Under the pieces are notes generated by a model that worked only from the letters and a program-made list of their open reading frames with translations, was not told where the DNA came from and searched no databases. A stretch of 32,397 bases of DNA from a virus: the IMG/VR virus record IMGVR_UViG_3300033153_001972, positions 1 through 32,397 of that record, one strand, 5' to 3'. This document shows, one piece after another, positions 1,493-32,397 of this stretch; the first letter of the stretch is position 1; every line of letters begins with the position of its first letter. The translations under genes were made by a program, and so were the position numbers.

Positions 1493-1495
1493 TAG

Positions 1496-3895: not shown

Positions 3896-3919
3896 CATAT
3901 AATTATATAATATCATATC

Positions 3920-4986: not shown

Positions 4987-5002
4987 CAAAAACTAATATA
5001 AA

Positions 5003-6472
5003 ATGGCTTTAGGAAATTTTATAGTACAAAACGCTGGATTACTTCCAACGCAAGATCAGTCAGTTTTATCGACTAACTATCTTCAATGGACAGATCCAGG
5101 TTCTGCAGACTTTGCTGATTTTGCTCAACAATATCTACCAGAATTGTACGAACAAGAAGTAGAAAGATTCGGTAACAGAACGTTATCAGGATTTTTAAGA
5201 ATGGTTGGCGCTGAAATGCCAATGACATCTGATCAAGTAATTTGGTCTGAACAAAATAGATTACATATCGGTTATGAAAACGTAAGTAAGATTGATACTG
5301 CAAATGATGCTACATTTACAGTTAACGTTCCAGCTGGTAATGAAGTAGTAATTAGAGTTAATCAAACTTTTGTAGTTTATGATCCAGCTTCTGGATTAAC
5401 TTTAAAAGGTTTAGTTACAACCGCTCCAAACCCAGGTAACCCAGGAACATTTACTTTCCAAGGTGCTTGCTACACTGCTCCTAACTTTGCAGCTTTAAAT
5501 GCAGTAAACCTTAAACTATTTGTTTATGGTTCTGATTTTGCAAAAGGAACATTAGGAATGGATGGTTCAGTTACTCCATCATTTACTCAATTTAACAACA
5601 AACCAATCATCATTAAAGATAAATATTTAGTTAATGGTTCTGACACTGCTCAGATTGGTTGGGTTGAAGTTGCTACTGAAGACGGAACATCTGGATTCTT
5701 ATGGTATATGAAAGCTGAATCAGAAACTAGACTAAGATATGAAGATTATCTTGAAATGGCGATGGTTGAAGGTGAATTAGCTGCGGCTGGTTCAGGTGTT
5801 GCTGGTCTACCAGGAACTCAAGCTTCAGGTGTTGGTACACAAGGTATGTTTGCAGCTTTAGAAGATAGAGGTAACGTTTATGCTGGTTTTGCTGGTGCTC
5901 CAAATCCTGGTTCAGGTGCTTTAGGAGACTTCGATCAAATCCTACAACAATTAGATTTACAAGGTGCAATTGAGGAAAATATGTTGTTTTTAGATAGAGC
6001 TACTGCTCTTGATTTTGATGATATGATTGCTACTCAAGCTGGTAGTTCTTATAATGCTACAACGGCTGCTTCTTACGGTCTTTTTGACAACGAAGCTGAA
6101 ATGGCACTTAACTTTGGTTTCTCTGGTTTTAGAAGAGGTTCTTATGACTTTTACAAAACTGATTGGAAATATCTTAATGATGCTTCTACAAGAGGAATGG
6201 TTGATAACATTAAAGGTGTATTAATACCTGCTGGTACTTCAACTGTTTATGATCAAATGTTAGGATCAAACATCAGACGACCTTTCTTACACGTAAGATA
6301 TAGAGCTTCTGAAACAGACGATAGAAGAATGAAATCATGGATTACTGGTTCTGTAGGTGGTGCTTATACATCATCTTTAGATGCTATGGAAGTTCATTAT
6401 CTTTCTGAAAGATGTCTTTGTGTACAAGCTGCTAATAACTCTTTTAAAACTTATAAATTATGGGAGCATTAA
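5003..6472 (+). CDS. Major capsid protein (HK97-fold expected)
   Basis: This is the shell-forming protein of the head. At 489 residues it follows the scaffold-like gene. It shows the composition and order expected of a large HK97-type capsid protein: an N-terminal arm, a helix-rich segment near residues 240-320 (MAMVEGELAAAGSG, then DQILQQLDLQGAIEENML), and a C-terminal domain with VLIPAGTSTVYDQMLGS, RRPFLHVRYRASETDDRR and DAMEVHYLSERCLCVQAANN. The late motifs match, from memory, the major capsid proteins of crAss-like and related marine podoviruses. The leader (AAAACTAATATAAA before ATG) has no Shine-Dalgarno but is A-rich, as in highly expressed Bacteroidota genes. The stop overlaps the start of the next gene by 13 bases, so the two are probably translationally coupled. 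The fold is inferred, not computed. Confidence 0.85.
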   Translation: MALGNFIVQNAGLLPTQDQSVLSTNYLQWTDPGSADFADFAQQYLPELYEQEVERFGNRTLSGFLRMVGAEMPMTSDQVIWSEQNRLHIGYENVSKIDTANDATFTVNVPAGNEVVIRVNQTFVVYDPASGLTLKGLVTTAPNPGNPGTFTFQGACYTAPNFAALNAVNLKLFVYGSDFAKGTLGMDGSVTPSFTQFNNKPIIIKDKYLVNGSDTAQIGWVEVATEDGTSGFLWYMKAESETRLRYEDYLEMAMVEGELAAAGSGVAGLPGTQASGVGTQGMFAALEDRGNVYAGFAGAPNPGSGALGDFDQILQQLDLQGAIEENMLFLDRATALDFDDMIATQAGSSYNATTAASYGLFDNEAEMALNFGFSGFRRGSYDFYKTDWKYLNDASTRGMVDNIKGVLIPAGTSTVYDQMLGSNIRRPFLHVRYRASETDDRRMKSWITGSVGGAYTSSLDAMEVHYLSERCLCVQAANNSFKTYKLWEH

Positions 6473-9658: not shown

Positions 9659-9661
9659 TAT

Positions 9662-15844: not shown

Positions 15845-15880
15845 ATAGTAATATATAAAATAAACAAGTAATTATAAAAT

Positions 15881-17848
15881 ATGGCTTATCAGTTACCAGT
15901 AAAATATTTTAACTCTTTTTGGCTAAAGAAGGTTGTAGGAGATCCTGATCTTGACCCTCAGCAAGCTATAACAGATGATGGTGGTGTTCCAGAAAATGAA
16001 TCTACTGTCACTACAAGCGTGTATGGAGGACAAACTCAACGTGAGTATTATTTACCTACTTGGCCTGGGCTACCATGGGGAGATGAACTTTCCTTGCCAA
16101 ACCCTGAAGATGGAAATGTTTTAAAAAATTATCCTTGTTTTCCATGGGGCGGAAGAGATTGGAATAGCTATACATCTGGAAATCCTTTACCAGTGTGTGA
16201 AGGAGGTAGTTTGCTCGATAGGACTACTAGTTTAGAAACAGGAAAAGAGAGATGTTGGTTTGTGGAAGAAGCTAGAATTAGAGGAGGTTTTAATAATACT
16301 AGTGTAGATTTTGGTACTAAAGCTTATGCTGTAGAAGAAGATAACTTACAACAACATAGATTTAACACTTTAATATATTCTGGTATATATAATTCTAGAA
16401 CAGGTATAAATAACACTAATGTGTTTTCTACAGCAGATGGATCCATAACAGTTAGTTTAAGTCCTACTAATGGAAGTGTGCAAAGATTATACGCTTATAA
16501 TACTAATTTAACTATATTTCAAGAGAATAAAGTAAGTAAAGCATTGATTGATAAAGATGCTATATATTCAGCAGAAGGAGTTGGAACACCGGTAACATCA
16601 TCTAAGGTAGTTATAGGACAAATTGTTCCTTACGGTGGTGAGTTTGGGATTAGTACCAATCCTGAATCATGGGCACAATATGGTTTTAGACAATACTTTG
16701 CAGATCGCTTTCGAAATGCAGTTTTAAGACTTTCAAGAGATGGTATTACAGAAATATCACGTTACGGGTTAACAGATTTCTTTAGAGATACTTTTTCAAC
16801 TATTACATCTGATCAACAACAAAATACAATTACTTTCAGTTATCTTGCGGACACAACTCCTGATACTTCTCAAATAACTTTTGAAATATTCAATAGTCCA
16901 GATTGTGATTGTTCAAATATAAAAATAGGATCTTTATTAAGTATTAATGGGGTGGTTATCCCAGATATATTCGTAGTAGCTGTAGACCCTGGTGCAACCA
17001 CATGCCTTATAACTACTTCAACGAGGTGGGATGCTGCTACATACAAACAAGGAGACTGGCCTGAATATATAAGTTTTATAACATATAATAAAGATAAAAT
17101 AGTTGGTGGATATGACACATATAATCAAAACTATGTTATATCAGTACAAGATTTTGAGAACAGCTCTGATAGTGCATGTAATGTATTATCTACTTACAAT
17201 ACATTAAACTTTGATGAAGCAATAAATGGCTGGGTTAGCTTTTATAGTTATAAACCAGTTTTTATAGATAGTTTAAAAAATAATTTCTTTTCATCTAATA
17301 GCTATAGCTTATATCAACATTATGTAGATAGTATTAATAATAGAGGAGTATTTTACGGTGAAAGAAGCGGATCTAGTATTGAATTCATTTTTAATCCTAA
17401 TCCATCTATGGTTAAAAATTTTCAAACCATAAACTACGAAGGCACAAATGGATGGCAAGTTGATTATTTCTTATCTGACTCTACTGAAATGTTACCTTAT
17501 CCAGGTGGAACTAATCTATGGTATCCAGTTGGAGATGAGACTAATTTTGTGTATAGTTTAGAACAAGGAAGATATACGAGTCCTCTTACTCAAATGAATG
17601 AGTATGCTGGATTTCATAGAAAAGAAAATTTATATTGTAGTAACTTAGTAAATAAGTCGGCACCATTTGCTGGAGAAGTTGTGTTTGGAGGAAGTATGAC
17701 AGGTATTAAAGGATATTTTGCTACAGTAAGATTAAGTACAGATGAAGAAAGAACAGATAATAATGGTAATATATTAGAACCTACAGATTTAGGCGGCATG
17801 AAAGAGTTGTATGCTGTAACATCGTCTTGGGTTAGATCATCAAATTAA
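15881..17848 (+). CDS. Tail structural protein, probably beta-propeller-like partner of the nozzle
   Basis: This 655-residue, beta-rich protein follows the nozzle-like gene by 36 bases. Recognised segments are RIRGGFNNTSVDFGTKAYA near residue 131, ENKVSKALIDKDAIYSAEG near 212, and YGFRQYFADRFRNAVLRLSR near 267 followed by DGITEISRYGLTDFF. Further repeats of short strands with KIVGGYDTYNQNYVIS near 405 suggest blades of a propeller. I recall the same string of motifs in large tail proteins of crAss-like phages. The N-terminal 110 residues are Pro/Trp/Gly-rich. It may form the distal nozzle or muzzle ring with the preceding protein. The start has an A-rich leader and no Shine-Dalgarno. Propeller architecture is inferred from sequence rhythm and would need a structure prediction. 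Confidence 0.68.
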   Translation: MAYQLPVKYFNSFWLKKVVGDPDLDPQQAITDDGGVPENESTVTTSVYGGQTQREYYLPTWPGLPWGDELSLPNPEDGNVLKNYPCFPWGGRDWNSYTSGNPLPVCEGGSLLDRTTSLETGKERCWFVEEARIRGGFNNTSVDFGTKAYAVEEDNLQQHRFNTLIYSGIYNSRTGINNTNVFSTADGSITVSLSPTNGSVQRLYAYNTNLTIFQENKVSKALIDKDAIYSAEGVGTPVTSSKVVIGQIVPYGGEFGISTNPESWAQYGFRQYFADRFRNAVLRLSRDGITEISRYGLTDFFRDTFSTITSDQQQNTITFSYLADTTPDTSQITFEIFNSPDCDCSNIKIGSLLSINGVVIPDIFVVAVDPGATTCLITTSTRWDAATYKQGDWPEYISFITYNKDKIVGGYDTYNQNYVISVQDFENSSDSACNVLSTYNTLNFDEAINGWVSFYSYKPVFIDSLKNNFFSSNSYSLYQHYVDSINNRGVFYGERSGSSIEFIFNPNPSMVKNFQTINYEGTNGWQVDYFLSDSTEMLPYPGGTNLWYPVGDETNFVYSLEQGRYTSPLTQMNEYAGFHRKENLYCSNLVNKSAPFAGEVVFGGSMTGIKGYFATVRLSTDEERTDNNGNILEPTDLGGMKELYAVTSSWVRSSN

Positions 17849-17853
17849 ATTAA

Positions 17854-18255
17854 ATGGAATTAAATATAAGAAGACTTCAACCAGAAGATTTAGAAATAAT
17901 AAATAAATGGTGGGAAGCATGGCCTGATTGGGTAAATCCAGGAATTGGTTTTTTACCTGAAACAGGTGTAGTAGTAACAGCAGGAGACAAACCTATTTTT
18001 GCCGCATTTATATATTTTACGAATGCACAAGTAGCTTTATTTGAATGGATGATTTCAGATCCAAACTATAGAGAAGATAATAGACAAGAAGCTGTAGAAT
18101 TACTTATACAAGGTGCAGAATCAGTTATTAAATCACAAGGATATAAATTCATGTTTAGTATAAGTAAACACAAGAAATTAATGAACACAATGGAGAATTT
18201 AGGTTTTCATGTAGATAGAGAACCATCTTATGAACTTTTAAAATTAATAGAGTAA
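17854..18255 (+). CDS. GNAT-fold protein, T7 gp13-like position
   Basis: This 133-residue protein has the strand-helix order of GCN5-related acetyltransferases: an opening strand and helix (NIRRLQPEDLEIINKWWEAW), two central strands (VVVTAGDKPIFAAFIYF and VALFEWMISDP), a long helix (EAVELLIQGAESVIKSQGYK) and a closing MENLGFHV. The acetyl-CoA pyrophosphate loop, usually R/Q-x-x-G-x-G/A, reads REDNRQEA (residues 73-80) and has lost the glycines, so catalysis is doubtful. In T7-like phages the gene just before the internal virion proteins 14, 15 and 16 is gp13, which as I recall also has a GNAT-like fold. Here the next genes look like 14, 15 and 16 analogues, so a virion assembly role is more likely than metabolism. 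It is separated from the next ATG by 1 base. Confidence 0.68.
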   Translation: MELNIRRLQPEDLEIINKWWEAWPDWVNPGIGFLPETGVVVTAGDKPIFAAFIYFTNAQVALFEWMISDPNYREDNRQEAVELLIQGAESVIKSQGYKFMFSISKHKKLMNTMENLGFHVDREPSYELLKLIE

Positions 18256-18256
18256 T

Positions 18257-19045
18257 ATGGCAGTAATGACAGGAATAGCCGCTGCCGGTATGATAGCCGG
18301 TGCAGGCATGGGAGTTTTCACAGCAGTACAAGCAAATAAAGAAGAAAAAAGAGCTAGAGGCGAAAAAATAAAACAAGAGCAAATATTAGAAGATCAAAGG
18401 AATAGTAGACAAAAAATATACAATCCTATGGCTGGTCTAACTAATGAAGCTGAAAATATTGGTGTTGCTACTCAAGCAACAAAGTTTGCAGCTGAACAAG
18501 CGGATATGGCTTTAGCAAATACATTAGATACTATTAGAGCTACTGGTGGTGGTGCTAGTGGTGCAACTGCATTGGCTCAAGCTGCATTACAAAGTAAACA
18601 AGGTATTGCTGTAGAAATTCAAAGACAAGAATTAACTAATAAACAAAACATTGCTGCTACACAAATGAAGATCAATGAACAAAAAGCTCAAGGAGCTAAA
18701 TGGGCATGGGAAGAACAAGAACAAAGAGATATAATTGAATTAGATAGAACACAAAACTTAATGGATAAAGCCGAAGCTCAAGAATTTGCTGCGCAAGCTC
18801 AAAAGATGGAAGCTATTGGTAATATTGCTAGTTCTGTTGTAAGCGGAATGGGTAATATGGCTACGGGTATGGCGACTGATAATCAAGTGGCTGGATTTGC
18901 TCAATATGGCTACGATCAATATGCCTTAAACCCTAGTGATCCTCAATGGCAGGGTTTTTCACAGATGGATGGTACTTCTGGTAATAGAAAAGCATATGGC
19001 GCTGTTAATAGTTATTTTGGCGGATACGGTATGTTTAATCAATAA
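18257..19045 (+). CDS. Internal virion protein, T7 gp14-like (ejected)
   Basis: This 262-residue protein opens with a small hydrophobic Gly/Ala stretch (MAVMTGIAAAGMIAGAGMG), then a long Ala/Gln/Glu-rich helix (ANKEEKRARGEKIKQEQILE onward) and Gly/Ala segments (IRATGGGASGATALAQAAL near 95). After residue 190 comes another membrane-like GNIASSVVSGMGNMATGMAT, with a soft Gly/Tyr tail. This matches the design of T7 gp14, the small ejected protein that forms a pore in the outer membrane: an N-terminal hydrophobic segment, coiled helices and a second Gly/Ala stretch. Size (T7 gp14 is about 196 residues) and location, after a GNAT gene and before two large genes, support this. Similarity is of architecture rather than residue identity. 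Confidence 0.65.
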   Translation: MAVMTGIAAAGMIAGAGMGVFTAVQANKEEKRARGEKIKQEQILEDQRNSRQKIYNPMAGLTNEAENIGVATQATKFAAEQADMALANTLDTIRATGGGASGATALAQAALQSKQGIAVEIQRQELTNKQNIAATQMKINEQKAQGAKWAWEEQEQRDIIELDRTQNLMDKAEAQEFAAQAQKMEAIGNIASSVVSGMGNMATGMATDNQVAGFAQYGYDQYALNPSDPQWQGFSQMDGTSGNRKAYGAVNSYFGGYGMFNQ

Positions 19046-19056
19046 AAAAATATAAA

Positions 19057-20793
19057 ATGGGCTACGTAGATCCACAACAAAATATACGAACTTATCTTCA
19101 GACTATGAACGATCAGACTAGAAGGTTTGGTGAAGAGTTTGATAGTATGTTTGCTAGAGTAAATCAAGACGTTAGAGGTAATATTGCTGCTAATATAGCA
19201 AAAATAGAACAAGCTCGTCTTAAAAAACAAGTTGGCGCAGAAGATTATTGGGAGGCATATAAAAAAGCTACTCCTAAGGAAGGGTATATGGAGAATAGGA
19301 ATAAATTTCTTAAACATGTAGGAGAGTTGTATTATGGTATTTCAGATTGTGGCACGCCAGATTGTGAATACAAGCAACGTAATTATGAACAAATACCTAG
19401 TAAAATAGCAGAAGTACAAGGTGTATATTTAGCTTTGAAAAAAATGTTTGATGATTCTATTGGAGCTGGAGATGGTATCCCTGGAGGATATAATCCGGCT
19501 ACCTCTCTAAAAGTAATGGGTTTTATAGATGAAGATGCTGACCATAGCTATGATGTTAATGATGATGGTAAATTAGTAGTTAGTTACAAGTATGGTGGAG
19601 TAGATTATTCCATGACTGCTCAAGAAATTATAGATTTAGGTGTAGAAGGAAATTGGGGTGTTAAAGTATATGGAGATCCTGTTTCTACTAGAACTGAAAT
19701 ATGGGATGGTATCAAAAAGAAAATAGATTATGATAAATTAGTTTCTAAATATCAAAGCACGAGTGGAAGAACTACAAAACAATTTGATCAATATAAAGTT
19801 GCTAATGAAGAATTTATAAAATTTGCATCTAATCCAGAAGAATATAAGCAAACTATAGAAGGTCAAAATGGTCAAACTATAATGGGGAACAATTGGGCTA
19901 TTATATTAAATGACGCAGTGGATGTAGTAAACGATCCTACTGCACCCCAAGAGCTTAAAGATAAGTATCAACCTTATTTAGATAAAATATTAGGGGGAGC
20001 TGATGGTAAATATGGTGGAGCTGCTGCAGCTGATGATATTAAAATCCCTGGAAGAGATATGAATGTAAATTATTTAGGAGATGAAAATGTTCAAGATTAT
20101 GTAGGCTCAACAGCTACAAGCTCTAGTGATTGGTTAAATTTTTATAAAAATCAAGGAGCAGCAGGGGTGTGGGATGTAACAAATGCCAATATGAAAGGTT
20201 TAGCTTATGATTGGTTTAGTAGCTACAACCCTAAAACTAATTATTTAAAAGGATATAATAATAAAGGTAAAGTATTAAAGACAGAGGTTAGAGGTGGTAA
20301 AGGATCATCTAATTCATCAGGAGGTGGTAAAGGAACATTTGATTTAAATAAGAAAAGAGATCAAATTGTTACATGGGCTAAAAACTCTGATAGTCCTAAT
20401 ATTTCAAGTGCTTACAAAATACCTTATGGACCTAATAATAATAAACAAACAGGTATTGCTTATATATGGGGTGCTGATGCCAATGCTGGAAAAAATCCAA
20501 CATATATAGGTTTAATGAGTGAATGGTTAAACAGTAATGAAGGATTACCAAGTATTGGTTTAGCTGCACCTAAAAATTCTACATTTAAAATAGATGCAGA
20601 AGGTAAAGTTTATATTGAAAATAGTGATGGAAGCATTACGCCAACTTCAATTATATTTAAACCTGGTAGGGAATTATATGGTAATGATCAAACAATAAGA
20701 AGTATTTTAGATAATTTTGATAAACAAGCAAGAGCTGATGCTAATCAAGGAGGAGTAGACAGCGATGAAGACCCTGCAGGACTAAACAATTAA
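19057..20793 (+). CDS. Probable internal virion protein in the T7 gp15 position
   Basis: This 578-residue protein has no recognisable enzyme motif. The N-terminal 110 residues are helical and charged (NIRTYLQTMNDQTRRFGEEF, then IAANIAKIEQARLKKQVGAE). A DVNDDGKLVVSY segment near residue 173 looks like a beta hairpin or a weak EF-hand loop, and residues 425-440 are a Gly/Ser/Lys linker (GGKGSSNSSGGGKG). The C-terminal part (QTGIAYIWGADANAGKNPTY, then KIDAEGKVYIENSDGSI) is beta-rich. In T7 the gp15 gene lies between gp14 and gp16 and its product forms the periplasmic tube with gp16. The order is the same here. The tag is positional; no sequence similarity to gp15 is claimed. It ends 10 bases before the giant gene. 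Confidence 0.5.
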   Translation: MGYVDPQQNIRTYLQTMNDQTRRFGEEFDSMFARVNQDVRGNIAANIAKIEQARLKKQVGAEDYWEAYKKATPKEGYMENRNKFLKHVGELYYGISDCGTPDCEYKQRNYEQIPSKIAEVQGVYLALKKMFDDSIGAGDGIPGGYNPATSLKVMGFIDEDADHSYDVNDDGKLVVSYKYGGVDYSMTAQEIIDLGVEGNWGVKVYGDPVSTRTEIWDGIKKKIDYDKLVSKYQSTSGRTTKQFDQYKVANEEFIKFASNPEEYKQTIEGQNGQTIMGNNWAIILNDAVDVVNDPTAPQELKDKYQPYLDKILGGADGKYGGAAAADDIKIPGRDMNVNYLGDENVQDYVGSTATSSSDWLNFYKNQGAAGVWDVTNANMKGLAYDWFSSYNPKTNYLKGYNNKGKVLKTEVRGGKGSSNSSGGGKGTFDLNKKRDQIVTWAKNSDSPNISSAYKIPYGPNNNKQTGIAYIWGADANAGKNPTYIGLMSEWLNSNEGLPSIGLAAPKNSTFKIDAEGKVYIENSDGSITPTSIIFKPGRELYGNDQTIRSILDNFDKQARADANQGGVDSDEDPAGLNN

Positions 20794-20803
20794 TAAAATA
20801 TTT

Positions 20804-23800
20804 ATGCCAGAATATACAACAGTAGAATTTTTAACCCGTGTTCGTAATAAATATAATGCTTATTATGACATGGATGACACTGAGCTTTTAGAAAAAATAT
20901 TAGCTAAATATCCTGTTTATAAAGATCAAATAACTGACTATGTATCTCCAGAAGATAAATATAGAGATGAGCAGTTGACTGAATTTGTAAAGCAAAGATT
21001 TGATGGGCTGACTGATGCAGGTGAAGGGTTAATTAATCCTTGGGACAATAATCTTAAATCTCCTATGTCTCCTGATTATGACTTTGCTACTGATAGTCCT
21101 ATGGCTATTGATATACAAAAAGATTTCCAAGCAAATAGAGAAAGATACGATGATGTAGTAAAAATGTTTAGAGAGTTAGATCCAGATGCTAGTGTTGAAT
21201 ATGCTGAAGGTGGAGTAGGTGGTGTTATTAATATGCCTGGTATAAGTGGATTGGATGAAGAAGAAGATCCAGAAATTTTCTCAGCAGCGTATGGTCTAAT
21301 ACAAGGTACAGGCAAAACTTTAGCAATGGGTAATTGGGAAGAAGGAGAAACCCCATGGAATATTCAAGAATTTAGTTTGGACCCTGCTATACGTAAAAAA
21401 CAATTGGCTGGTTTTAAAAAGCGCTATGAAATGTTGCCAGACAAAATAACTCAAATTAACAAACAGAAACTAATAGATCTTCAAGCTATGCAGCCTGATG
21501 ACAGAGTAGAGGCTATTGAGAATGGTAGATCTTTCCCTGTAGATGACATAAACACAGGATATCCTAGTTCTTTATACGCCTCAGCTAATGATACTAGAAA
21601 TATTACAGGAGTTGGAGTTGATGCTTACAGAGAAGGTACATTAAGAGGTGCCACTGATAAAAATCTTTATGGAAAGTTTGATGTTAATACTTTAACAGAC
21701 GCTACAGATTATACATTCAAGGGTAATGAACAAGTAATAGAGAATTTTTATGATGAATATGGAGAGCCTTTTTCTGCTCCAGGAGCATCTAATACAAAAG
21801 CTCTGTTTAGTGGATTTAGCTATAGAGATTTTTTAGATAATCCTGAACAGTTTAAGCAATGGCTTTATAAAGCACAATCAGGAAAGTTAAGAGATTTTGC
21901 TATAGAAAGATTAGAAAAAAATAACCCAACTGACGAAATGATTTCTTATGCAAATAAGAAATACGGTGTTACAAGTAAGGAAGATATAATATCTAGAATA
22001 GCTAATGATTCAACATCGCCTTGGGCTGAATATTTTTTCCCTATAGAGACATATGAAAAAACTCATAAAATGGGTAAGGATGAGAATCCATTACTTGCGA
22101 ATGGTAAAGAAAATCCTAATTATAATAAAAATATTTACTATATAAATGCTCCAGCTAAAGGTATTCCGTGGAAAGAATGGAATGGTTTAAGCAACGAAGA
22201 AAAAGATAGAAGAATATCTAAAGGTGAAGGTAACATAACTCAGATAGCAGAAGTTAGAGATCCCGATCTAAAGTTCTTTGCAGAGTGGGATGTGTTAGAA
22301 ACTATAGATGATGGAGATGGTAGTGATAGATTTGTAGAAGTTAAAAAAATATTAGCAGGTGGGCCAGCTAACCTGGGTGAGTATGAAACCCTTGCTCAGT
22401 TTTTTGCTGGCAAATATGACCAAAATGGCAAATCATTAGATTTTATAGATTTTGATAGACCTAATTGGGAAAAGTTTACAAATAGACTTGATGCTTCTAC
22501 AGATTGGCAAACTCTTTTTCAGTTTGCTGTAGGTGGACCTGCTCAATATGATCATTATGATAAAAAAATTGCTACAAATAATCTTGAAGATTGGTGGTTA
22601 AGTATTAAAGATAATCCTACTGTACAAAAGTACACGCAAAGATCTTTAGGTACTTTTAGTGAAAATGAAAAAGACGAGAGAATCGCTAAATTTGGTTGGG
22701 ATAAAAAAACAAAAAAAGATATAAAACAAGAAGAAAAAATTTTAAAAGAAAAGTTTAAGAAAGAAGGTGATTATTTAGGAGAATGGAGAAAATATAGAGA
22801 AAAAGAATTACCTTATTGGAAGGAACTTTCAGAAACAAAAAAGGATGGCGGCCTCAAGCTCAGAGTCGAAGACGATAAGATTGACATGCATAGACCTGGA
22901 GTTGAAGAAAGAATGCTCAAAATGAGATTTGATGAAAACGTTTGGGCACCGAAAGAGAAGCAATACATTGAGGATAACTATGCGAAATTATTAGCGGATG
23001 ACCCTGAAGCTATAATGCCAAATAGGATCGACAACAAGGTTAGAACTCATATAACTGAGCAAGGTAATAGTTTAATGAGTATATTCCGAAAAAATGAAGT
23101 AGCAGGTCTTCCTGACATGTTTGATAGTCAAGGAGATTTTGCAGGCGACATTGGAGAAGTATCTGAAAAGGCAGATGATAAAACCAGTAGAGATAAACAA
23201 GCAACATATACTGGCCCAGGTTCACAATATCAATTAGGATTAGAATATATAGAAGCTAATAATATAAGTGATAGAGAGTCAATGTATGAAGCCAGAGATG
23301 GTTTATTTTGGAAGCTTAACAGTTTAGCAAAGATGATTTCTGACAAGGCTGGCGAAGTGGGTAGTATGAGGTACAAAGGAACTGTCAGCAATGTTGTAGG
23401 AAAACTAGGTACTATGTTTCAAGATAGCATGCAAGAAGGTGATAATGAATTACAGTTGCTAAGTTGGACAGGTGATATTGCTAGAATAAATCATCTTGTT
23501 GAAACAGGAGAGTTTGAAGGATTTTGGAGACTTTTAAGAAGTAACCATCCTTTAGCTCAAGAGTTTAATGAAACATTAAGAGACTTTCAAGCGTTACATG
23601 AAGTAGCAACTCTTGGTAAAGATGTATTTGGAACCAGCCGTGAATTTGATGAATCCGGAGGGGTTATAGCTAATATAGGCTCTACCTGGGATAAAATGTT
23701 TACTGGATATGATGCTTTTGATGGAATTACTGGTGGAGCTGCAGAAATAGGAAATGATGAAAGAGCTTTAATTATGTCTAATTATTTAGCAGGTAATGGT

Positions 23801-26800
23801 TACTCTGATTTATCTCCTCATATACAAGAAAGATTAGAAGCTGGATGGGGTGAAGTAGGTGTTGAAACAACAGCTAGTTTAGTGCCTTTAATAATAGAGA
23901 TTGCTGCTGTTGAAGCTGGTGGCGGTGCTGCTGCTATTGAAAGCATAGGCCTGTGGGCTAATAGACTGAAGAACTACTCTGCAGTAAGTAGAAGATCTAA
24001 ATTATGGAATGGTATAATTACTAATACTTTAGGCGGAACTAGGTATTATGGTACCACTAGAGCTATGAGAAGTGGAACTAATTTAACAGGTGAAATGCTT
24101 AAAATTGCCGCTGCTGACGAGTTAGGTAATTATATATATGGTAGAGATAAAATGGGATTAACCTTTGGTGGTAGTATGGGCTATGGTATGGCTATGGCAG
24201 AATCGCTAATGACTTCTCAACTAGGAAGAAAACTACCTTTCTTACCAGGCATATTACAAAAACTTAGTCAAAGTCGTGCTATTCCTTCTAGGTTTTTAAG
24301 TCAACAAGGAGGACAAATAACAGGTGCAGGATTAGGATATATGTCTATGCAGGTTGCTGAAGCAGCTCAAGGTCTTACTAATGAATTATTAGGTGGAGAA
24401 GAATATGATTTAGCTCACCAACTTCAAGGTATGTCTGATATGAATCAAACTGTAGGAGTATTAACTTCATTATACTTTCTTGGTTTTAAAGGAAGCAAAG
24501 TTTACGATGCTTTAAGTAAAGACATACACTACGGTTTTAAAGGTCCATATCCTGAATTAACAAAAGCTAAAAAAGAATTAAACATCAAAGGAGATGATGG
24601 CTTGTATTATGAAACTAAAGAAGGCAAGTACGAAACAATAGATGATCTTTATGACAGCGAAGTTGACAAGTTATTAAATGATAAGAAATATGAAAATGAT
24701 CTCACTCCTGAAGGATATATAAAACCTAAAAGTCCATTAGCTAAAAAGCTTAACGAATTAAAAAATGCAAAAAGAACTGTAGAGTCATATGAAGATTTAG
24801 CTCTTGCTAAAGAGCTGGTAAAAGGAGATTTCAAAAAAGGTTCAAACTATCAAAAATATAAAGATAATTTATATTTCTTAAAGCAAGATATAGAGCAAGG
24901 TGCTGGTTTAAGCACAGATCTTATATCATGGGTAGGATCAGGCCATGTAACGCCAGAAGCGTTATCTGCTACGCTTGGTAAATCAAAAGCTTGGGCAGAG
25001 AGATTTATTGAACAGCAAGGTCAAATAATGGATATGGTTTCTAAGAGTGGAGTTTTCCCTAACAACAAGTATAGAAAACCAGCTATTGAACTAGCAGTAA
25101 AAGTTTATGACTTGCAATATGCTAAAGAATCATTAGAACACAAACAATCTCAAAGCTCTGTTGTTAATCCAGAAATAAAAGCTGAAATAGCTAAAGTAAA
25201 TGAGCAATTAAAAGAGGTATTATATGGAAATGAAAAAAGACCAGGTCTCAGTGCTTTATTAGAAGGTGGCAAAAAAAATCCTCACAGCTTATTTGCTAAA
25301 ACAGAACCGGAACGACTTAAGCAAATGGAGACTAGTGATGCTGTGGTAGAATCAATACTAGAATATAACAATAGTAAAGGAGGCCAAAGAGCTAAGTTAG
25401 AACCTTTATCTTTTGATGAAATGATGGATAAATATCCAGAGCAAGCTTTGGAAAATCCTGAAGGCTTTTTTCACACTAATGCAGATGGATCTGTAAACTT
25501 AGTGGTTAATAGAGAAAGGGCTTTAGATTTAAATCCAGCTACTTCTTTACATGAATTAGCTCACTTTTTAGTAGATAGCAGCTTTAAAGACGCTAAAGGT
25601 AATGTAACTCCAGAAGGAAAAAAGATTATTGACAGTTGGTTAAACAGTATGCCTAGGCAGAAAAGAGCCGTGCTAGAAAAAAGAATTGCAGATAATTATT
25701 CGAGTAATAAAGCTCCAGAGCAGTATTATGTAGAATACTTAACGTCTTACTTAGATGCTGTAGGCAAAGGTGAAGCAACTTTACCTAAAGGAGAGTTTTC
25801 AAAAACAATAGGAAACAAGCTTAAAGATTTTTTTAAAGATAGTCCAGAAATTAATTTTGATCTATCAACAGTCGAAGGAATTGAAAATTTAATTGGATTA
25901 TTAAATCACGCTACTAGTAAGCCAGGTAAATTGAATATTACTCTTCAAAAATTAATTGACAAAAAAATAGCATCAGAAAAAGGGGAAGCTCCTAAAGAAG
26001 AAGCTAAAGAGAAAAGTGAAACTTCTGATGAAAAAGAAAAAGAACAAGAGATTGAGGATGCAAATACACCAGTTGAGACTGAAAAAATAAATCCTAAAAA
26101 AGCTGCTAAAGCAAAAGTTAAAGAAAAAGCTCAAAAAGATAAAGCAAAAGAAGAAGTTAAAGAAGAAGTTAAAGAAGAGGAATCACCTGAGGTTCAAGAT
26201 AAAACAACTGTAGAAAAAAGAAGTGATACTTTTAAATCTCCTAAAGAATTAATAAAACAATTAGAAATAACTGATTCTGAGATCATTAAAAAAATTAATG
26301 AAAAACATGCGAATGACTCTTTTGGTGTTGATATAGAGTTGGTAGAAATAAGAACTGACGCAGATGGTAATAAAACTGCAATGGTTGATATTGCCGGTGA
26401 TGGAGAGTTAACTAAAATAAAACTACCATTTGACAAAGGAACTTTCTCTAAATCAAAAGGGTTAAAAGATATTAATTTAGAATTAAACAAAAATTTAAAA
26501 GAAAAAGAAAAATTAATAGCTAGTAATAAAGCTTTAGTGGTAGCAGGTGCCGCTAATAATAGAGACAAGATTAACAAGAATGTAAATCGATTAAAAGAAA
26601 TTAATAAAAATATTAACACTCCTACTCGAACAAAGTTTGAAACTAATAAGATGGGTGTAGAAATTGTAAGATCTACCGAAAAGAATTTATTAGGCAAAAG
26701 AATTCCAGGAGATGTAGCTGAAGCCTATAATAAAAGTATTAAAGCAGGAGATGCTAAATTAAAAGCAGGAGATTTAATCACATCTAGAAATATAAAAGAC

Positions 26801-29800
26801 GTTGTCTATGGTGCTGAAAAATTACTAGCAGATATAAACGCTCCAATTATAAATAAAGCTAAATCTATGTATAAAGAAATTCCTGACTCTAAAATAACTA
26901 GTAGAGCTCAATGGAATGAAATGGTAGATAACTTCTTTAGTTCTAAACTTCCAGAAGACGGTAGTATTTTATATGGTAAAAAGAAAAGAGATTCTAAACA
27001 ATTCTTATTTGATCCTAAACAATCTGGATTAGGTACATATATGACTAACTTCTTTGTTAATAAATCTAAAGAGCTATTTAAGAAAGGAACATTTGAAAAA
27101 GGTGGAGATGCTTTAGATAACTTAAATATATCAACTGATACTCCTAGTTTAGAAGCGACTGAAGCTTCAATGAGAAAGAATAAAGCTTTAGATTTAGGTC
27201 CAGCTGATACTAAATTGTTTGAAGATATTACAAGAAAATTTATTAAAGATAATATTAAAAAAATAAGTAAAGCACAAGGAGATAAGCAAGCTTTAAGTGA
27301 TATATTTGATACTGATCTTAATAAATATTTAGATAAGAATATTACAGAAATTATATCGAAAAAGATGCCTAAAGGTTATAAAGAACCTTATAAAAACTGG
27401 GTGGAAGCTATAGCTCCTGAATTAATAAAATTAGCTGAGACTAAAATAGGAAAAGATGGGGTGATGGTAGGTGATCCTTATGTTTTTATTAATAGAGGAG
27501 GAAAACAATTTCAAAACTTATTTTATAAACCTAGAAAATTAACGGCTAAAGGAGATGTGGGAAGAATAAAGGTTGCCGAAGGAAAAGAAAATCCAGCTTG
27601 GGACTTTCTTCAACCATCAGAAAAAGCTATAGTAGATTTCTTTACTACAGATAAACCTGGAAAGCCTAGAAAAGACTCTTTAAGAAAACCATTAGCTAGA
27701 ATAATTAGTAAAACTATTGCTAAAGATTATACCAATAAAGTTTTAAGTGAAGCATGGGAACAGGCGGCAAAAAAATTAGATATAGATAAATTAATATCTA
27801 AAGATAAAAAAGATTTAGATTATAAAGTTTCTAAAGATTGGGCTAAAGATATTAAAGATAATCCTTATGCAGAGCTTACAACTGATCAATTAAGATCTGT
27901 TTTAAAAGATAATTTATTTTCTGATGTTGCTAATGCTATTATACGTAGTGAAGATTTTATAGCATCGAAAAATAAAGATTTAAAAACTATAGACTTTGAA
28001 AACATAAAGAAAAATTTAGGTAAACGATGGGGTGCTACTCCAGAAATGTTAGATTTTATAAGTGTATCAAATATAGTAGATAATGCAGAAATATTTAGAC
28101 TAGAACAACCTATTGCTTTTAAAGATTGGTTGAATGCAGCTGAAAAAGGTTTAGAGCTTGAATGGCATGCAAATAATCCTCAAATGAATAAGTATTTTGA
28201 AACTGCTATTATAAGAGGTATGCTAGATAAAGCTTATGCGGCTAGAGAAGATGTAGCCACATTTGTAAAAGGTATTGATGCGTTGCCAGACAAGGTTAAA
28301 TGGAATGGTAAGGATTTAGATATTTCAGGATTAAAAGAATATTTAAAATCCCCTGAAAGTGCTATGTATGGTAGTAGTAATAAAGCAGGTGAACAAAAAG
28401 TAAACTATTTTAATGAAACAGTATTAAAGAAATATATAGATCATGCAATTAAGTTTGGTGAAAAACTTCCTACCTGGTTGTTAAAAATGTCAAATAAAAA
28501 TTCTGTTTTAGGTACACTAGGGTTAGGTACTTCACCTACAGGATTATCTTCTTTAAGTTTAAAAGAAGGAGCAAGACGTAGTTTAGAGGGTTGGGAAAAA
28601 GCTATAGCAAAAGCTATGGACAGAGGAGAAACTTTTGGAGATAATACAGCAGCGGAGTTAGCACAACAACTACCAAATACCCAAAGTACTACTCCTAAAA
28701 TGATGGCTACTAGAGAAGGTAAAAACTGGATACCTACAGGTATAGAGGTTTATGATACGCCTTGGGCTAGAAAACAAGCTGATAGAGCATTGGAAGCTCT
28801 TGGAAAGAATGAATCTAAAGCTTTTGCAGGATTAGAAAAGAAGTTGAAAGACTTTTATTCAGATAGCCAAATGAAGAGGTTAATGAAAAAAGATTTTACT
28901 GACTTAACCGACGCTGAAATAGCAGAAGTATTGTCTAAAGGTATCAATGAAGGTAACAATGCTATACGTAAAGAAGTATATGATGCTATACAAATAGCGA
29001 AAGAGGAATACATAGCAGAAGCAAAAACTGAAGCCGAAGCTCTAGATAGAATGGAATACGTGATGAGAAAATCTAAAGAAAATACTAATCTAGTAGAAGG
29101 TTTAGATAGACAAGCTGTACCTATAGAAGCTATATATTGGCCTGAAGGTAAAAAATTAATGGCAGAAACTATAAAGCTTGAGCATTTAAAAGTTTCTGTA
29201 GATCAGTCTAATAAAGTAATGGCTGCAGTAATACAAGGAGAGTATAGTACAAAAGGAAAAGATATATCTCGGGATTACGTAGGAATATTATCACAGAAAA
29301 AATTATTAGATATAGTGGATTTCCGTGGTAAAACTACTAACACATCGACTGTAGCTAGAATGGCTTTAGATTTATTAGAGTTAAAAAATTATAGAACTAT
29401 TACTCCTGATGGTAAGTTTGGTGAAACTTATTACGAGAGAATGATTAGAGAAGCTGGAGCTGATATTAAATTAACTTCTAAAGAAATAGAGTTGATTAAG
29501 TCAGAAGCATTAGCTGGATCAGTAGCTGAATGGGCTATAAATAGAGATGCTACAGGTAGAAAGATACTAAAGACCGCTGTAGAAAATGCTAAAACTTTAG
29601 AAAAAGTTTATGACAAAAACCAATCTAATCAAGTATTTTCTAAATCTAAAAAACTTAGTATTCCTAATCAAATAGAAGGAATGAAGATAGCTGACAAAGC
29701 TTTAGAACTAGGGAGAGAAAGAGATAAAAAAGTTAAAAAAGCTAGGGTATTTGATTTTGATGATACTGTTGCAAGAACTAATAGCAAAGTATTTGCTACT

Positions 29801-32397
29801 AAAGATGGTGCAAAGAAAATATTAAATGCAGAAGAGTTTGCAAAGCAAGGCGAAGCATTAATGAATGATGGTTGGAAAATGGATTTCTCTGATTTTAATA
29901 GAGTAGTAGAAGGAAAAAAAGGTCCATTATTTGATCTAATGAAGAAAATGAAAGATGCAGCTGGAGATAGAGATATGTTTATACTAACTGCGCGTGCTCC
30001 AGAATCTGCTCCAGCTATTAAAGAATTTTTAGACGCTATGGGAATTGATATCCCTTTAGATCACATAAAAGGTTTAGGTAATTCTACAGGAGCTGCTAAA
30101 GGAGAATGGATATTAGAAAAAGCAAGTGAAGGATATAATGATTTTTATTTTGCTGATGATGCTACTCAAAACGTAAAAGCTGTTAAAGAAGTTTTAGATC
30201 AGATAGATGTTAAATCACAAGTGCAGTTAGCAATGAGTAAATCAGCAGACTTAAGTAAAGCTTTTAATAAACTTATTCAAGGAAGTAGTGGAGTAGAATG
30301 GTATAAAGATTTTTCTCCTGCTAAAGCTAAAGTACTTGGTAAGAGCAAAGGTAAAGGTAAAATTATACTTCCAGCTGGAGCAGAAGATTTCTTAGGTTTA
30401 ATATATACTACTTTAGGTAAGGGCAGAGTAGGAGAAAATCAATTAGCTTGGTACAAAAAGAATTTACTAGATCCATATAATAGAGGGACGCAAAGTTTAA
30501 GAACAGAGCGAACTAATATGATGGCTGATTTTAAAGAGCTGAAAAAACAATTAGATGTTCCTAAGGATTTAAGAAAAACTACTGAATCAGGTTTTACAAA
30601 TGAGCAAGCAGTTAGAGCTTATTTATGGGCTGAAAGCGGTATGGATATTCCAGGTTTATCTAAAAGAGATTTAAAAGAGTTAACTGATATTGTTAAAAAC
30701 AATCCTAAACTAGAAGCTTTTGCTAAACAATTACAAATGATTTTAAAAGGAGATAAATATTCTACTCCAAAAGAACATTGGTTGTCAGGCACTATAACAA
30801 CAGATTTAATTGACATTTTAAACACAACAAAGCGAGATACTTATTTAAAAGAATTTAAGGATAACGTTGATATAATATATAGTAAAGAAAACTTAAACAA
30901 ACTAGAAGCTATATACGGCAGTAAATACCGTGCCGCATTAGAAAATTCTATAGCTAGAATGAAGTCTGGTAAAAATAGAACTGGTACAGAGAGTAAATTA
31001 ACTAATGATGTGTTAGATTATGTTAATGGATCTATTGGTACTATTATGTTTTTTAATACTAGATCTGCTTTATTACAAACTATATCAGCAGCTAACTTTA
31101 TAAATTTAAAGCATAATAATCCTATTAGAGCTGGTAAAGCTTTTGCTAATCAAAAACAATATTGGAAAGATTTCACTGAGCTAATGAATTCAGATTACTT
31201 AGTGGACAGACGTAATGGATTGAAGTTAAATATATCTGAATCTGAAATTGCAGACGCTGCCGCTACTAGTAGAAACAAAGCAAAAGCAGCTATTAATTAT
31301 ATATTAGAAAAAGGATATTTACCTACTAAGTTTGCAGATAGTTTTGCTATTGCATCAGGTGGAGCTACATGGTATAGAAATAAGATAATTGATTTAGTAA
31401 AAGAAGGAAAAACTGAAGCTCAAGCTAAAGAAATAGCTATGAAGGAGTTTATAGAAATCTCGGAAATTTCTCAACAGTCCTCTGATCCTAGTAAAATATC
31501 TAGTCAACAGGCTAGTACAGCAGGAAGAATATTTTTACAATTCGTAAATACTCCTATGCAGTATACTAGATTGCAGAAAAGAGCCGTTCAAGATATTATT
31601 AATAAAAGAGGAGATTGGAAAGATCATGTAGGAAAAATATTATATTATGGAATAATGCAGAACTTATGGTTCAATGCTGCACAACAAGGATTGTTTGCGT
31701 TAGGTTTTGGAGATGGAGATATAGGAGAAAAAGAAGAGCAAAAAATATATGACACAGCTAACGGTATGTTAGATAGTATATTAAGAGGAGCTGGTTTTGG
31801 AGGCATGACTATATCTGTTTTGAAAAATACATTATTAGACCTATATGAAAGAAGTGGAAAAGATAGACCTGAGTATCAAGATGCGTGGCAAAACTTGTTA
31901 CAGTTTTCTCCTGCAATAAGAAGTAAATTTATGAAACTTAAAGCAGCTGGTTGGATGTTTGACTCTAAAAATCGTAGACAAGAGATGATGGATAAAGGAT
32001 TTAGCTTAGATAACCCTGCTTATGAAGCTGCTGCTAAAGTTATTTCAGCTACGACTAACATTCCAGTTGATAGATTGTTTACTAAGTATGAAAATATTTC
32101 AAATGCTTTTTCTGATGAAACAGAAACATGGGAGAGTATAGCTAATTTATTAGGTTGGCCATCTTGGCAATTGAAAACTAGCAGTTCTGATAAAAAAGAA
32201 GCGTATGACGATCCAAGTATATATGATGCGTGGGAACAAAAATCTATATTAAAACAATATGGATTATCAGAAAGAGGTATTAAGCAATATAAAAACAAAG
32301 ATATGAGAACTAAAAAAATCAAAGAATTGCAAAAACAAAAACGTTCTCAATACTTTCCTAAAGAAGAACATAAAGATTTATATTATAAATCTAGAAA
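20804..32397 (+). CDS. Giant multidomain (polyvalent-type) virion protein, 3' end cut by window edge
   Basis: One reading frame runs from ATG at 20804 to the right edge without a stop: 3864 full codons, over 400 kDa, still incomplete. In order it has an N-terminal motif (YDMDDTELLEKILAKYP, residues about 21-37), a long acidic/aromatic region, Gly/Ala hydrophobic segments (1020-1195), a metallopeptidase-like HELAH (1583-1587), a Lys/Glu linker (about 1720-1810), a sigma-region-2-like patch (about 2069), long helical regions, a HAD phosphatase domain (about 2980-3130), and a C-terminal region (about 3400-3640) of a type I recall from giant marine phage proteins. It sits in the T7 gp16 position after gp13/14/15-like genes, so ejection with the DNA is likely. 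No transglycosylase motif was seen. Function beyond this is open. Confidence 0.9.
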   Translation, partial: MPEYTTVEFLTRVRNKYNAYYDMDDTELLEKILAKYPVYKDQITDYVSPEDKYRDEQLTEFVKQRFDGLTDAGEGLINPWDNNLKSPMSPDYDFATDSPMAIDIQKDFQANRERYDDVVKMFRELDPDASVEYAEGGVGGVINMPGISGLDEEEDPEIFSAAYGLIQGTGKTLAMGNWEEGETPWNIQEFSLDPAIRKKQLAGFKKRYEMLPDKITQINKQKLIDLQAMQPDDRVEAIENGRSFPVDDINTGYPSSLYASANDTRNITGVGVDAYREGTLRGATDKNLYGKFDVNTLTDATDYTFKGNEQVIENFYDEYGEPFSAPGASNTKALFSGFSYRDFLDNPEQFKQWLYKAQSGKLRDFAIERLEKNNPTDEMISYANKKYGVTSKEDIISRIANDSTSPWAEYFFPIETYEKTHKMGKDENPLLANGKENPNYNKNIYYINAPAKGIPWKEWNGLSNEEKDRRISKGEGNITQIAEVRDPDLKFFAEWDVLETIDDGDGSDRFVEVKKILAGGPANLGEYETLAQFFAGKYDQNGKSLDFIDFDRPNWEKFTNRLDASTDWQTLFQFAVGGPAQYDHYDKKIATNNLEDWWLSIKDNPTVQKYTQRSLGTFSENEKDERIAKFGWDKKTKKDIKQEEKILKEKFKKEGDYLGEWRKYREKELPYWKELSETKKDGGLKLRVEDDKIDMHRPGVEERMLKMRFDENVWAPKEKQYIEDNYAKLLADDPEAIMPNRIDNKVRTHITEQGNSLMSIFRKNEVAGLPDMFDSQGDFAGDIGEVSEKADDKTSRDKQATYTGPGSQYQLGLEYIEANNISDRESMYEARDGLFWKLNSLAKMISDKAGEVGSMRYKGTVSNVVGKLGTMFQDSMQEGDNELQLLSWTGDIARINHLVETGEFEGFWRLLRSNHPLAQEFNETLRDFQALHEVATLGKDVFGTSREFDESGGVIANIGSTWDKMFTGYDAFDGITGGAAEIGNDERALIMSNYLAGNGYSDLSPHIQERLEAGWGEVGVETTASLVPLIIEIAAVEAGGGAAAIESIGLWANRLKNYSAVSRRSKLWNGIITNTLGGTRYYGTTRAMRSGTNLTGEMLKIAAADELGNYIYGRDKMGLTFGGSMGYGMAMAESLMTSQLGRKLPFLPGILQKLSQSRAIPSRFLSQQGGQITGAGLGYMSMQVAEAAQGLTNELLGGEEYDLAHQLQGMSDMNQTVGVLTSLYFLGFKGSKVYDALSKDIHYGFKGPYPELTKAKKELNIKGDDGLYYETKEGKYETIDDLYDSEVDKLLNDKKYENDLTPEGYIKPKSPLAKKLNELKNAKRTVESYEDLALAKELVKGDFKKGSNYQKYKDNLYFLKQDIEQGAGLSTDLISWVGSGHVTPEALSATLGKSKAWAERFIEQQGQIMDMVSKSGVFPNNKYRKPAIELAVKVYDLQYAKESLEHKQSQSSVVNPEIKAEIAKVNEQLKEVLYGNEKRPGLSALLEGGKKNPHSLFAKTEPERLKQMETSDAVVESILEYNNSKGGQRAKLEPLSFDEMMDKYPEQALENPEGFFHTNADGSVNLVVNRERALDLNPATSLHELAHFLVDSSFKDAKGNVTPEGKKIIDSWLNSMPRQKRAVLEKRIADNYSSNKAPEQYYVEYLTSYLDAVGKGEATLPKGEFSKTIGNKLKDFFKDSPEINFDLSTVEGIENLIGLLNHATSKPGKLNITLQKLIDKKIASEKGEAPKEEAKEKSETSDEKEKEQEIEDANTPVETEKINPKKAAKAKVKEKAQKDKAKEEVKEEVKEEESPEVQDKTTVEKRSDTFKSPKELIKQLEITDSEIIKKINEKHANDSFGVDIELVEIRTDADGNKTAMVDIAGDGELTKIKLPFDKGTFSKSKGLKDINLELNKNLKEKEKLIASNKALVVAGAANNRDKINKNVNRLKEINKNINTPTRTKFETNKMGVEIVRSTEKNLLGKRIPGDVAEAYNKSIKAGDAKLKAGDLITSRNIKDVVYGAEKLLADINAPIINKAKSMYKEIPDSKITSRAQWNEMVDNFFSSKLPEDGSILYGKKKRDSKQFLFDPKQSGLGTYMTNFFVNKSKELFKKGTFEKGGDALDNLNISTDTPSLEATEASMRKNKALDLGPADTKLFEDITRKFIKDNIKKISKAQGDKQALSDIFDTDLNKYLDKNITEIISKKMPKGYKEPYKNWVEAIAPELIKLAETKIGKDGVMVGDPYVFINRGGKQFQNLFYKPRKLTAKGDVGRIKVAEGKENPAWDFLQPSEKAIVDFFTTDKPGKPRKDSLRKPLARIISKTIAKDYTNKVLSEAWEQAAKKLDIDKLISKDKKDLDYKVSKDWAKDIKDNPYAELTTDQLRSVLKDNLFSDVANAIIRSEDFIASKNKDLKTIDFENIKKNLGKRWGATPEMLDFISVSNIVDNAEIFRLEQPIAFKDWLNAAEKGLELEWHANNPQMNKYFETAIIRGMLDKAYAAREDVATFVKGIDALPDKVKWNGKDLDISGLKEYLKSPESAMYGSSNKAGEQKVNYFNETVLKKYIDHAIKFGEKLPTWLLKMSNKNSVLGTLGLGTSPTGLSSLSLKEGARRSLEGWEKAIAKAMDRGETFGDNTAAELAQQLPNTQSTTPKMMATREGKNWIPTGIEVYDTPWARKQADRALEALGKNESKAFAGLEKKLKDFYSDSQMKRLMKKDFTDLTDAEIAEVLSKGINEGNNAIRKEVYDAIQIAKEEYIAEAKTEAEALDRMEYVMRKSKENTNLVEGLDRQAVPIEAIYWPEGKKLMAETIKLEHLKVSVDQSNKVMAAVIQGEYSTKGKDISRDYVGILSQKKLLDIVDFRGKTTNTSTVARMALDLLELKNYRTITPDGKFGETYYERMIREAGADIKLTSKEIELIKSEALAGSVAEWAINRDATGRKILKTAVENAKTLEKVYDKNQSNQVFSKSKKLSIPNQIEGMKIADKALELGRERDKKVKKARVFDFDDTVARTNSKVFATKDGAKKILNAEEFAKQGEALMNDGWKMDFSDFNRVVEGKKGPLFDLMKKMKDAAGDRDMFILTARAPESAPAIKEFLDAMGIDIPLDHIKGLGNSTGAAKGEWILEKASEGYNDFYFADDATQNVKAVKEVLDQIDVKSQVQLAMSKSADLSKAFNKLIQGSSGVEWYKDFSPAKAKVLGKSKGKGKIILPAGAEDFLGLIYTTLGKGRVGENQLAWYKKNLLDPYNRGTQSLRTERTNMMADFKELKKQLDVPKDLRKTTESGFTNEQAVRAYLWAESGMDIPGLSKRDLKELTDIVKNNPKLEAFAKQLQMILKGDKYSTPKEHWLSGTITTDLIDILNTTKRDTYLKEFKDNVDIIYSKENLNKLEAIYGSKYRAALENSIARMKSGKNRTGTESKLTNDVLDYVNGSIGTIMFFNTRSALLQTISAANFINLKHNNPIRAGKAFANQKQYWKDFTELMNSDYLVDRRNGLKLNISESEIADAAATSRNKAKAAINYILEKGYLPTKFADSFAIASGGATWYRNKIIDLVKEGKTEAQAKEIAMKEFIEISEISQQSSDPSKISSQQASTAGRIFLQFVNTPMQYTRLQKRAVQDIINKRGDWKDHVGKILYYGIMQNLWFNAAQQGLFALGFGDGDIGEKEEQKIYDTANGMLDSILRGAGFGGMTISVLKNTLLDLYERSGKDRPEYQDAWQNLLQFSPAIRSKFMKLKAAGWMFDSKNRRQEMMDKGFSLDNPAYEAAAKVISATTNIPVDRLFTKYENISNAFSDETETWESIANLLGWPSWQLKTSSSDKKEAYDDPSIYDAWEQKSILKQYGLSERGIKQYKNKDMRTKKIKELQKQKRSQYFPKEEHKDLYYKSR
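23861..24400 (+). other. Gly/Ala-rich hydrophobic segments inside the giant protein
   Basis: Residues about 1020-1195 of the giant protein contain three stretches with few charges: SLVPLIIEIAAVEAGGGAAA (near 1025), MGLTFGGSMGYGMAMAESLM (1117), and GAGLGYMSMQVAEAAQGL (about 1173). They resemble the weakly amphipathic, glycine-spaced helices of ejected proteins such as T7 gp16 that enter the inner membrane. None is a classic single-pass helix, so membrane entry is inference. Confidence 0.45.
25500..25740 (+). other. Zincin-like metallopeptidase motif inside the giant protein
   Basis: Bases 25550-25564 encode HELAH (residues 1583-1587), preceded by ATSL and a run of strands (SVNLVVNRERALDLNP), the usual setting of a zincin active helix after a beta sheet. 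About 57 residues downstream, YYVEYLTSYLDA offers Glu1644 in a helix of the 'E-Y-x-x-x-Y-L' type that can supply the third zinc ligand in gluzincins. Metallopeptidase domains of this kind are known in phage polyvalent proteins. The target is unknown; self-processing or cleavage of a host protein are both possible. Confidence 0.62.
25963..26220 (+). other. Lys/Glu-rich linker inside the giant protein
   Basis: Residues about 1720-1805 are almost only Lys, Glu, Ala, Asp and Thr, ending in a perfect in-frame tandem duplication of EEVK (bases 26150-26173). It reads as a disordered or single-helix linker that divides the protein into two parts of more than 1700 and more than 2000 residues. It follows the metallopeptidase-like domain directly. 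Confidence 0.75.
26900..27200 (+). other. Weak sigma-70 region 2-like patch inside the giant protein
   Basis: Residues 2069-2093 read FDPKQSGLGTYMTNFFVNKS followed by KELF. The order F-D-P, G, T-Y, aromatic, then a basic helix is that of sigma-70 region 2.3-2.4 (FDP...G..F.TYA..WI...I). The preceding residues (WNEMVDNFFSSKL) could be the helix before it. No region 4 or region 3 is seen nearby. It may be a chance match or a degenerate copy. Confidence 0.3.
29741..30180 (+). other. HAD-superfamily phosphatase domain inside the giant protein
   Basis: All four HAD motifs are readable in order: motif I VFDFDDTVA with the nucleophile Asp2984 and acid/base Asp2986, motif II ILTAR with Thr3062, motif III Lys3099 in AAKGEWIL, and motif IV YFADDATQNV with Asp3118 and Asp3119. 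Spacing fits a small HAD core of about 140 residues with a short cap. The active site looks intact, so phosphatase activity on a nucleotide, nucleic acid end or phosphoprotein is likely. The substrate cannot be told. Confidence 0.85.
31007..31710 (+). other. Conserved-looking C-terminal helical region of the giant protein
   Basis: Residues about 3400-3640 start with DVLDYVNGSIGTIMFFNTRS and continue through LPTKFADSFAIASGGATWYR to GRIFLQFVNTPMQYTRLQKR and ILYYGIMQNLWFNAAQQGLF, ending in a hydrophobic ALGFG. From memory this 'F.NTPMQY.R..K.A..D..N.RGDW' string recurs in giant proteins of marine phages and is among the large polyvalent-protein-associated regions. The amphipathic and aromatic helices at its end could contact membrane. 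Its function is unknown. Confidence 0.5.

Follow-up and report, generated by a model that had tools for sequence, protein, structure and literature searches.

A giant gene behind crAss-type muzzle genes in an environmental podovirus-like phage encodes a predicted zincin signature and a HAD phosphatase domain

RESULTS

Genetic environment of the giant gene

The window, i.e. the whole stretch of DNA analysed here, is an entire linear virus record of 32397 bases (IMG/VR record IMGVR_UViG_3300033153_001972), and the features described below all lie on its + strand. Terminase, portal, scaffold-like and capsid genes were assigned by homology (2..6472). The terminase is truncated at its 5' end, its frame (2-1492) being cut by the contig start; the open frames of relatives have ~740 residues. 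It is 64% identical to that of Podoviridae ctfjg026 and 49% to that of an Elemovirus of Flavobacterium. Pfam searches detected crAss muzzle domains further downstream (10994..17848), and a crAss-type muzzle is apparently divided between two genes, 10994-15844 and 15881-17848 (PF25731 and PF25729), in the lineage of the window. The next gene (17854..18255) codes for a 133-aa acetyltransferase-like protein (phrog_17252), as judged from its resemblance to the annotated ctfjg026 homologue. This gene adjoins ejection genes in ~15 of the loci that we fetched, as well as in ctfjg026 and Panino. It is followed by genes for a 262-aa protein with a Gly/Ala-rich hydrophobic N-terminus (18257..19045) and a 578-aa protein (19057..20793), in the positions of phi40:1 gp99, a virion protein, and gp100, a virion protein by MS/MS, respectively. 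The giant gene comes immediately after them (20804..32395).

The structural genes are homologous and collinear in ctfjg026, Elemovirus, phi38:1 and Panino. The last structural gene is large in these phages, coding for 3859 aa in ctfjg026, 3694 aa in Elemovirus and 1691 aa in phi38:1 and its near-identical twin phi40:1; the apparent counterpart in Panino (28228-33717) codes for 1829 aa. The source phage is podovirus-like, in the neighbourhood of Pervagoviridae/Elemovirus (Bacteroidota hosts), with a crAss-type muzzle, and the giant gene is its last structural gene.

The first-pass annotation had placed the giant protein in the ejection-protein position and in the virion. The position agrees with phi40:1, in which experimental MS/MS of particles underlies the annotation of gp97 to gp101, gp101 and the preceding genes thus being represented in virions. 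Nevertheless, gp101 and the window giant share no detectable similarity in sequence; BLAST and profile searches with this giant or its C-terminal module revealed no similarity in the giants of the cultured phages ctfjg026, Elemovirus, phi38:1 and Panino either. As these giants do not align with it, the virion location of the window giant is predicted from gene position. The same annotation had likened the upstream genes to T7 13, 14 and 15, which their sequences do not support: they have no T7 match in Pfam or PHROGs, and they are the final genes of a structural block that includes a crAss-type muzzle.

In four relatives (L042, L059, L064 and L075), the gene downstream of the giant gene codes for a protein that begins like a signal peptide and ends in an aromatic segment resembling a beta strand (e.g. 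...SFGINYTFK), similar to an outer-membrane barrel protein.

Integrity of the giant frame

The giant frame starts with ATG and runs for 3864 codons, stop-free, up to the 3' end of the record; the visible part of the protein amounts to 435 kDa. Given the base composition, the ln probability of such a stop-free frame is ~ -358, and it cannot be due to chance. The G+C contents at the three codon positions (0.45/0.35/0.18) resemble those of the adjacent genes and are near-constant over eight blocks of 483 codons, and hence reveal no frame break or obvious join. The closest relative that can be aligned in the upstream part as well, L019, is collinear with residues 914-3796. The giants of relatives continue for 0-150 residues after the end of the alignable part, so the gene is nearly complete. 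Thus, the frame described in the first-pass annotation, open from 20804 to the window end, is real, and nothing in the codon-position signal indicates a missed stop or a chimeric join in 20804-32397. That the frame might be a chimera or an assembly artefact has a negligible probability in our view. It comes from one contig and is open at its end, and three relatives (L035, L065 and L022) carry single-base indels or an assembly duplication; against this stand the uniform signal throughout the gene, the collinear L019 match and an identical architecture in 62 full-length relatives.

A family of environmental phages

Using the C-terminal 1432 residues as a query, we found the C-terminal module in at least 154 environmental viral contigs. 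We fetched 80 of them, 62 of which yielded full-length genes, giving 63 full-length members with the window protein (2252-4311 aa). All 15 of the relative records that were checked contain the same terminase (73-83%), so the family looks like a single phage lineage. A search of an annotated phage collection returned a single weak, partial match to the C-terminal part of the giant. Among cellular genomes, the module was present in 11 MAG contigs only, several of them in Bacteroidota bins, with no isolate genome among the titles. No phage with this type of C-terminal module is known as cultured or observed in particles. The family, with its 150 or more environmental contigs, escapes Pfam, PHROGs and NCBIfam. 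One protein takes up about one-sixth of the genome in these phages (7-13 kb; the contigs reach 60-70 kb).

In L035 (~9995), L065 (~9990) and L022 (~9650-9850), the frame is broken close to the HAD start or ahead of it, which raised the possibility of a natural gene split. We rejected it, as indels of a single base and a tandem duplication introduced by the assembly account best for the breaks; no intron family was found. The giants of L059 and L075 end in a short Cys/His-rich, zinc finger-like tail (C..H.KSNGKRCKM...CYYHD).

The constant C-terminal module

The constant module (residues 2938-3864; 29615..32395) was delineated using the 154 relatives and an alignment of 66 sequences, which are 41-72% identical. 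Its ~925 residues can be aligned in every pair of members. It begins with a HAD domain (residues 2975-3141; 29726..30226), recognized by its invariant residues and fold match. The catalytic residues D2984, D2986, T2988, R3064, K3099, D3118, D3119 and N3123 are invariant in 66/66 sequences. In the structural model, the nearest solved fold is the phosphatase domain of a bacterial Pnkp1 (4xru; Z 11.0 over 126 residues, 2.7 A), and the phosphatase domain of T4 Pnkp gives a Z of 9.9. The DxDxT motif, motif II, the Lys residue, the DD motif and a Rossmann-like fold are all present in the alignment and the model. As modelled, this is a complete HAD phosphatase domain, closest to those of T4 and bacterial Pnkp.

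The remainder is an all-helical domain of ~700 residues (~3147-3862; 30242..32389), as predicted by an AlphaFold2 model (pLDDT 74.6) and by BFVD matches. In BFVD, the fold of the module matched phage proteins that carry polyvalent annotations (E 1e-7 to 1e-5, TM ~0.3-0.45); the distant matches of the helical domain include large polyvalent, PolyVal ADP-ribosyltransferase and MuF annotations. A candidate internal repeat (2223-2373 versus 3183-3320) was set aside, its BLAST E value being just 0.003.

Upstream of the HAD domain, an EHxxP motif is found in 42/63 members, compared with 2.1 expected. In the window protein, it is represented by E2793-H2794 (29180..29185), without the Pro residue; E2793 is at least 90% conserved. 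This motif recalls the first half of HNH nucleases.

A zincin signature and other features upstream of the HAD domain

Using the alignment and a model of the product of 24980-26239, we delineated a putative zincin-type metalloprotease core at residues 1553-1657 (25460..25774). Its HExxH motif, HELAH in the window protein (residues 1583-1587; 25550..25564), occurs as a single copy in 60/63 full-length members, whereas shuffled sequences give an expectation of 0.4. The remaining three have EExxH, seemingly at the equivalent place. The sequence around the motif is only ~14% identical, and among 55 aligned sequences four columns are invariant: the H, E and H residues, which were selection criteria, and a Glu 60 residues after the Glu of the motif, which was not. 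This residue (E1644; 25733..25735) is the predicted third zinc ligand. The HExxH motif is found in non-proteases too; together with the invariant Glu, it represents a zincin metalloprotease signature, predicted at the motif level. In the model, HExxH lies in a helix (186-202) behind a beta hairpin, and the Glu in a second helix (246-262), which is the layout reported for the zincins of polyvalent proteins (PMC5512222). Searching the PDB with the model gave no confirmation of the zincin fold, as the helical flanks dominated the matches.

The only strongly hydrophobic stretch detected by a Kyte-Doolittle scan, a possible membrane segment, precedes this core (residues 1017-1048; 23852..23947). 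A linker that is K/E-rich in composition follows it (residues 1740-1830; 26021..26293).

We searched the window protein and the N-terminal regions of other giants against Pfam (40 proteins), NCBIfam and PHROGs (22 proteins) and found nothing recurrent. No defence-related, polymerase, methylase, helicase or ADP-ribosyltransferase domains were detected in these databases, and the Pfam LPD and MPTase models did not match the giant proteins. Thus, of the 'several enzyme-like domains' initially proposed, two are supported, by the zincin signature and the HAD domain, and no others were found. The role in host takeover or anti-defence that was suggested along with them is possible. P-loops are not above chance in the family (7 versus 9.6 expected). 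One giant, L080, has a convincing P-loop (GGPGAGKT) at residues ~793-812, downstream of the zincin. A close structural match in BFVD is named UDP-N-acetylglucosamine kinase, so zeta toxin-like kinases may be among the exchanged loads described below.

Exchange of the upstream arms

The conservation of the C-terminal module, alignable in all pairs, does not extend upstream. The stretch between the zincin and the HAD domain gave BLAST matches in 28% of pairs, and the region preceding the zincin, with a mean of 979 residues, gave any match in 8.5%. We then considered the 52 pairs whose HAD domain and C-module are 75% or more identical in DNA. In 27 of these, which share members and hence do not represent 27 independent exchange events, less than 15% of the upstream giant DNA can be aligned. 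Among these 27 pairs, identity on the C-module side reaches up to 92% (L026/L027). In the exchanged pairs, the break precedes the HAD motif by a median of 24 residues. If constraint acted on the protein only, synonymous sites would not be expected to lose their identity so abruptly. The region upstream of the HAD domain has thus undergone exchange, rather than fast divergence alone. As far as we searched the literature, we found no description of a HAD-helical C-module with such a fixed exchange joint. The joint indicates where to divide the protein in expression and structural studies, and the exchanged arms make up a list of candidate host-directed functions.

DISCUSSION

Proposed function and alternatives

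We propose that a short-tailed phage packages the giant protein as cargo and ejects it into the host along with the DNA; the protein would be of the polyvalent or virion RNA polymerase type, with no polymerase found. We give this reading a probability of roughly 0.6. We infer the packaging, the ejection, the zincin and HAD activities and all their targets. The muzzle of crAss001 gates the ejection of cargo proteins of 60-277 kDa, which are stored in the capsid and in the tail behind the muzzle, and whose exit requires partial unfolding (PMC10172136). The N4 virion RNA polymerase (vRNAP) is composed of a membrane-binding N-terminal domain, the polymerase, an HExxH domain (C1) and a helical C2 domain of ~1100 residues, and it was proposed to exit like beads on a string via a narrow channel (PMC12633501). 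Its C-terminal region is needed for encapsidation (PMC5512222).

By analogy, the HAD and helical domains might hold the giant protein in the capsid near the portal, like the C-terminal 1400 residues of N4 vRNAP. The smaller ejection proteins encoded directly upstream would build a channel first, and the giant chain would then thread the muzzle, partly unfolded and with its N-terminus leading. Its hydrophobic segment may serve to anchor it in the membrane. Once inside the cell, the zincin would either process the giant chain into functional pieces or cleave a host protein. The Pnkp-like HAD domain would take the phosphate off a nucleic acid end or another phospho-substrate. The N-terminal and middle regions could represent exchangeable parts, matched to hosts or to channel partners. 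A bolder version, which is tentative and which we would not yet favour, is that of a polymorphic injected system: a universal C-terminal HAD-helical cassette would be swapped as a unit at the fixed joint, the varied N-terminal arms of 1500-3300 residues would carry hidden host-directed functions, and the zincin would release the arms in the cell. The family makes the proposal that zincins process ejected giant proteins testable.

Among the alternatives, the giant might be a purely structural or ejectosome protein, forming a channel, a capsid core or a spacer, with HExxH and HAD as relics or serving virion maturation only, e.g. self-cleavage in the head. The location of the gene behind ejection genes, the hydrophobic stretch and the mostly helical nature of the C-module are all in line with such a role, as is the processing of phage P1 DdrB before packaging, for which a zincin was proposed as the agent (PMC5512222). 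Nevertheless, catalysis is probably under selection, because the HAD residues are invariant in 66 sequences and HExxH and the distal Glu are kept amid ~14% identity, and wholesale swapping is not expected of a scaffold. We thus consider this explanation unlikely.

There is little chance that the giant is a virion RNA polymerase with a domain diverged beyond recognition, as in N4 or crAss phages. Its part order and size equal those of N4 vRNAP, and the records of 12 relatives lack a T7-type RNA polymerase, a weak test since PF00940 was silent in control genomes too; however, no RNA polymerase match was found in Pfam, NCBIfam, PHROGs or PDB sequences, and DxDxD is absent from the window protein and not in excess across the family. 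Slightly less probable still is a surface or tail fibre-like protein, such as a giant adhesin, rather than an internal cargo. A huge size and strong variability among phages would fit such a protein, unlike the HAD and zincin domains, the helical nature of the constant end and the position behind muzzle and ejection genes, for which crAss and N4-type phages offer parallels.

Comparison with known systems

The cargo reading can be compared with several known systems. Like N4 vRNAP (gp50; Schitoviridae), an ejected giant of ~3500 aa (PMC12633501; PMC5512222), the window protein has a large helical domain at its C-terminus, preceded by an HExxH domain; the likeness of the helical domain to C2 is one of order of parts. 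It differs from gp50 by the HAD domain between these two parts, and no polymerase domain or sequence similarity was found. The crAss001 cargo proteins (gp45-gp50) are also large, helical, virion-carried proteins encoded behind the muzzle gene (PMC10172136); in contrast with the single chain of the window, there are three RNA polymerase-associated proteins, and the window protein is devoid of DxDxD. The gp101 of phi40:1/phi38:1 (Callevirus, Pervagoviridae), whose terminase, portal, capsid and tail genes are homologous to those of the window, shares the gene position and is a virion protein by MS/MS, but it is smaller (1691 aa), has no HExxH and cannot be aligned.

Polyvalent proteins (Iyer et al. 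2017), e.g. P1 DdrB, are multi-domain proteins encoded near late genes, with the zincin as a hub. The window giant similarly harbours a zincin-type motif with the additional Glu, two disparate predicted enzyme domains and virion-gene neighbours, and its C-terminal part is similar in predicted fold to proteins bearing polyvalent-domain annotations. Nevertheless, it has no match to LPD or polyvalent MPTase models, phosphatases are unmentioned in PMC5512222, and its family has one strict constant C-module. In the MuF polymorphic toxins, which are also virion-associated, one end is constant and the other is exchanged; the window family, in contrast, keeps the C-terminus and swaps the N-terminus, and no MuF domain was found using Pfam. 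Finally, T7 gp16 is likewise the largest ejection protein and the product of the final gene of its block, but the window giant is ~3 times longer, with no sequence similarity and no lytic transglycosylase domain found. The initial comparison with T7 gp13-16 therefore fails at the sequence level, and N4 vRNAP and the crAss cargo proteins are better comparators. Our best reading, by analogy, is that the window giant would work like N4 vRNAP and the polyvalent proteins, rather than like T7 gp16.
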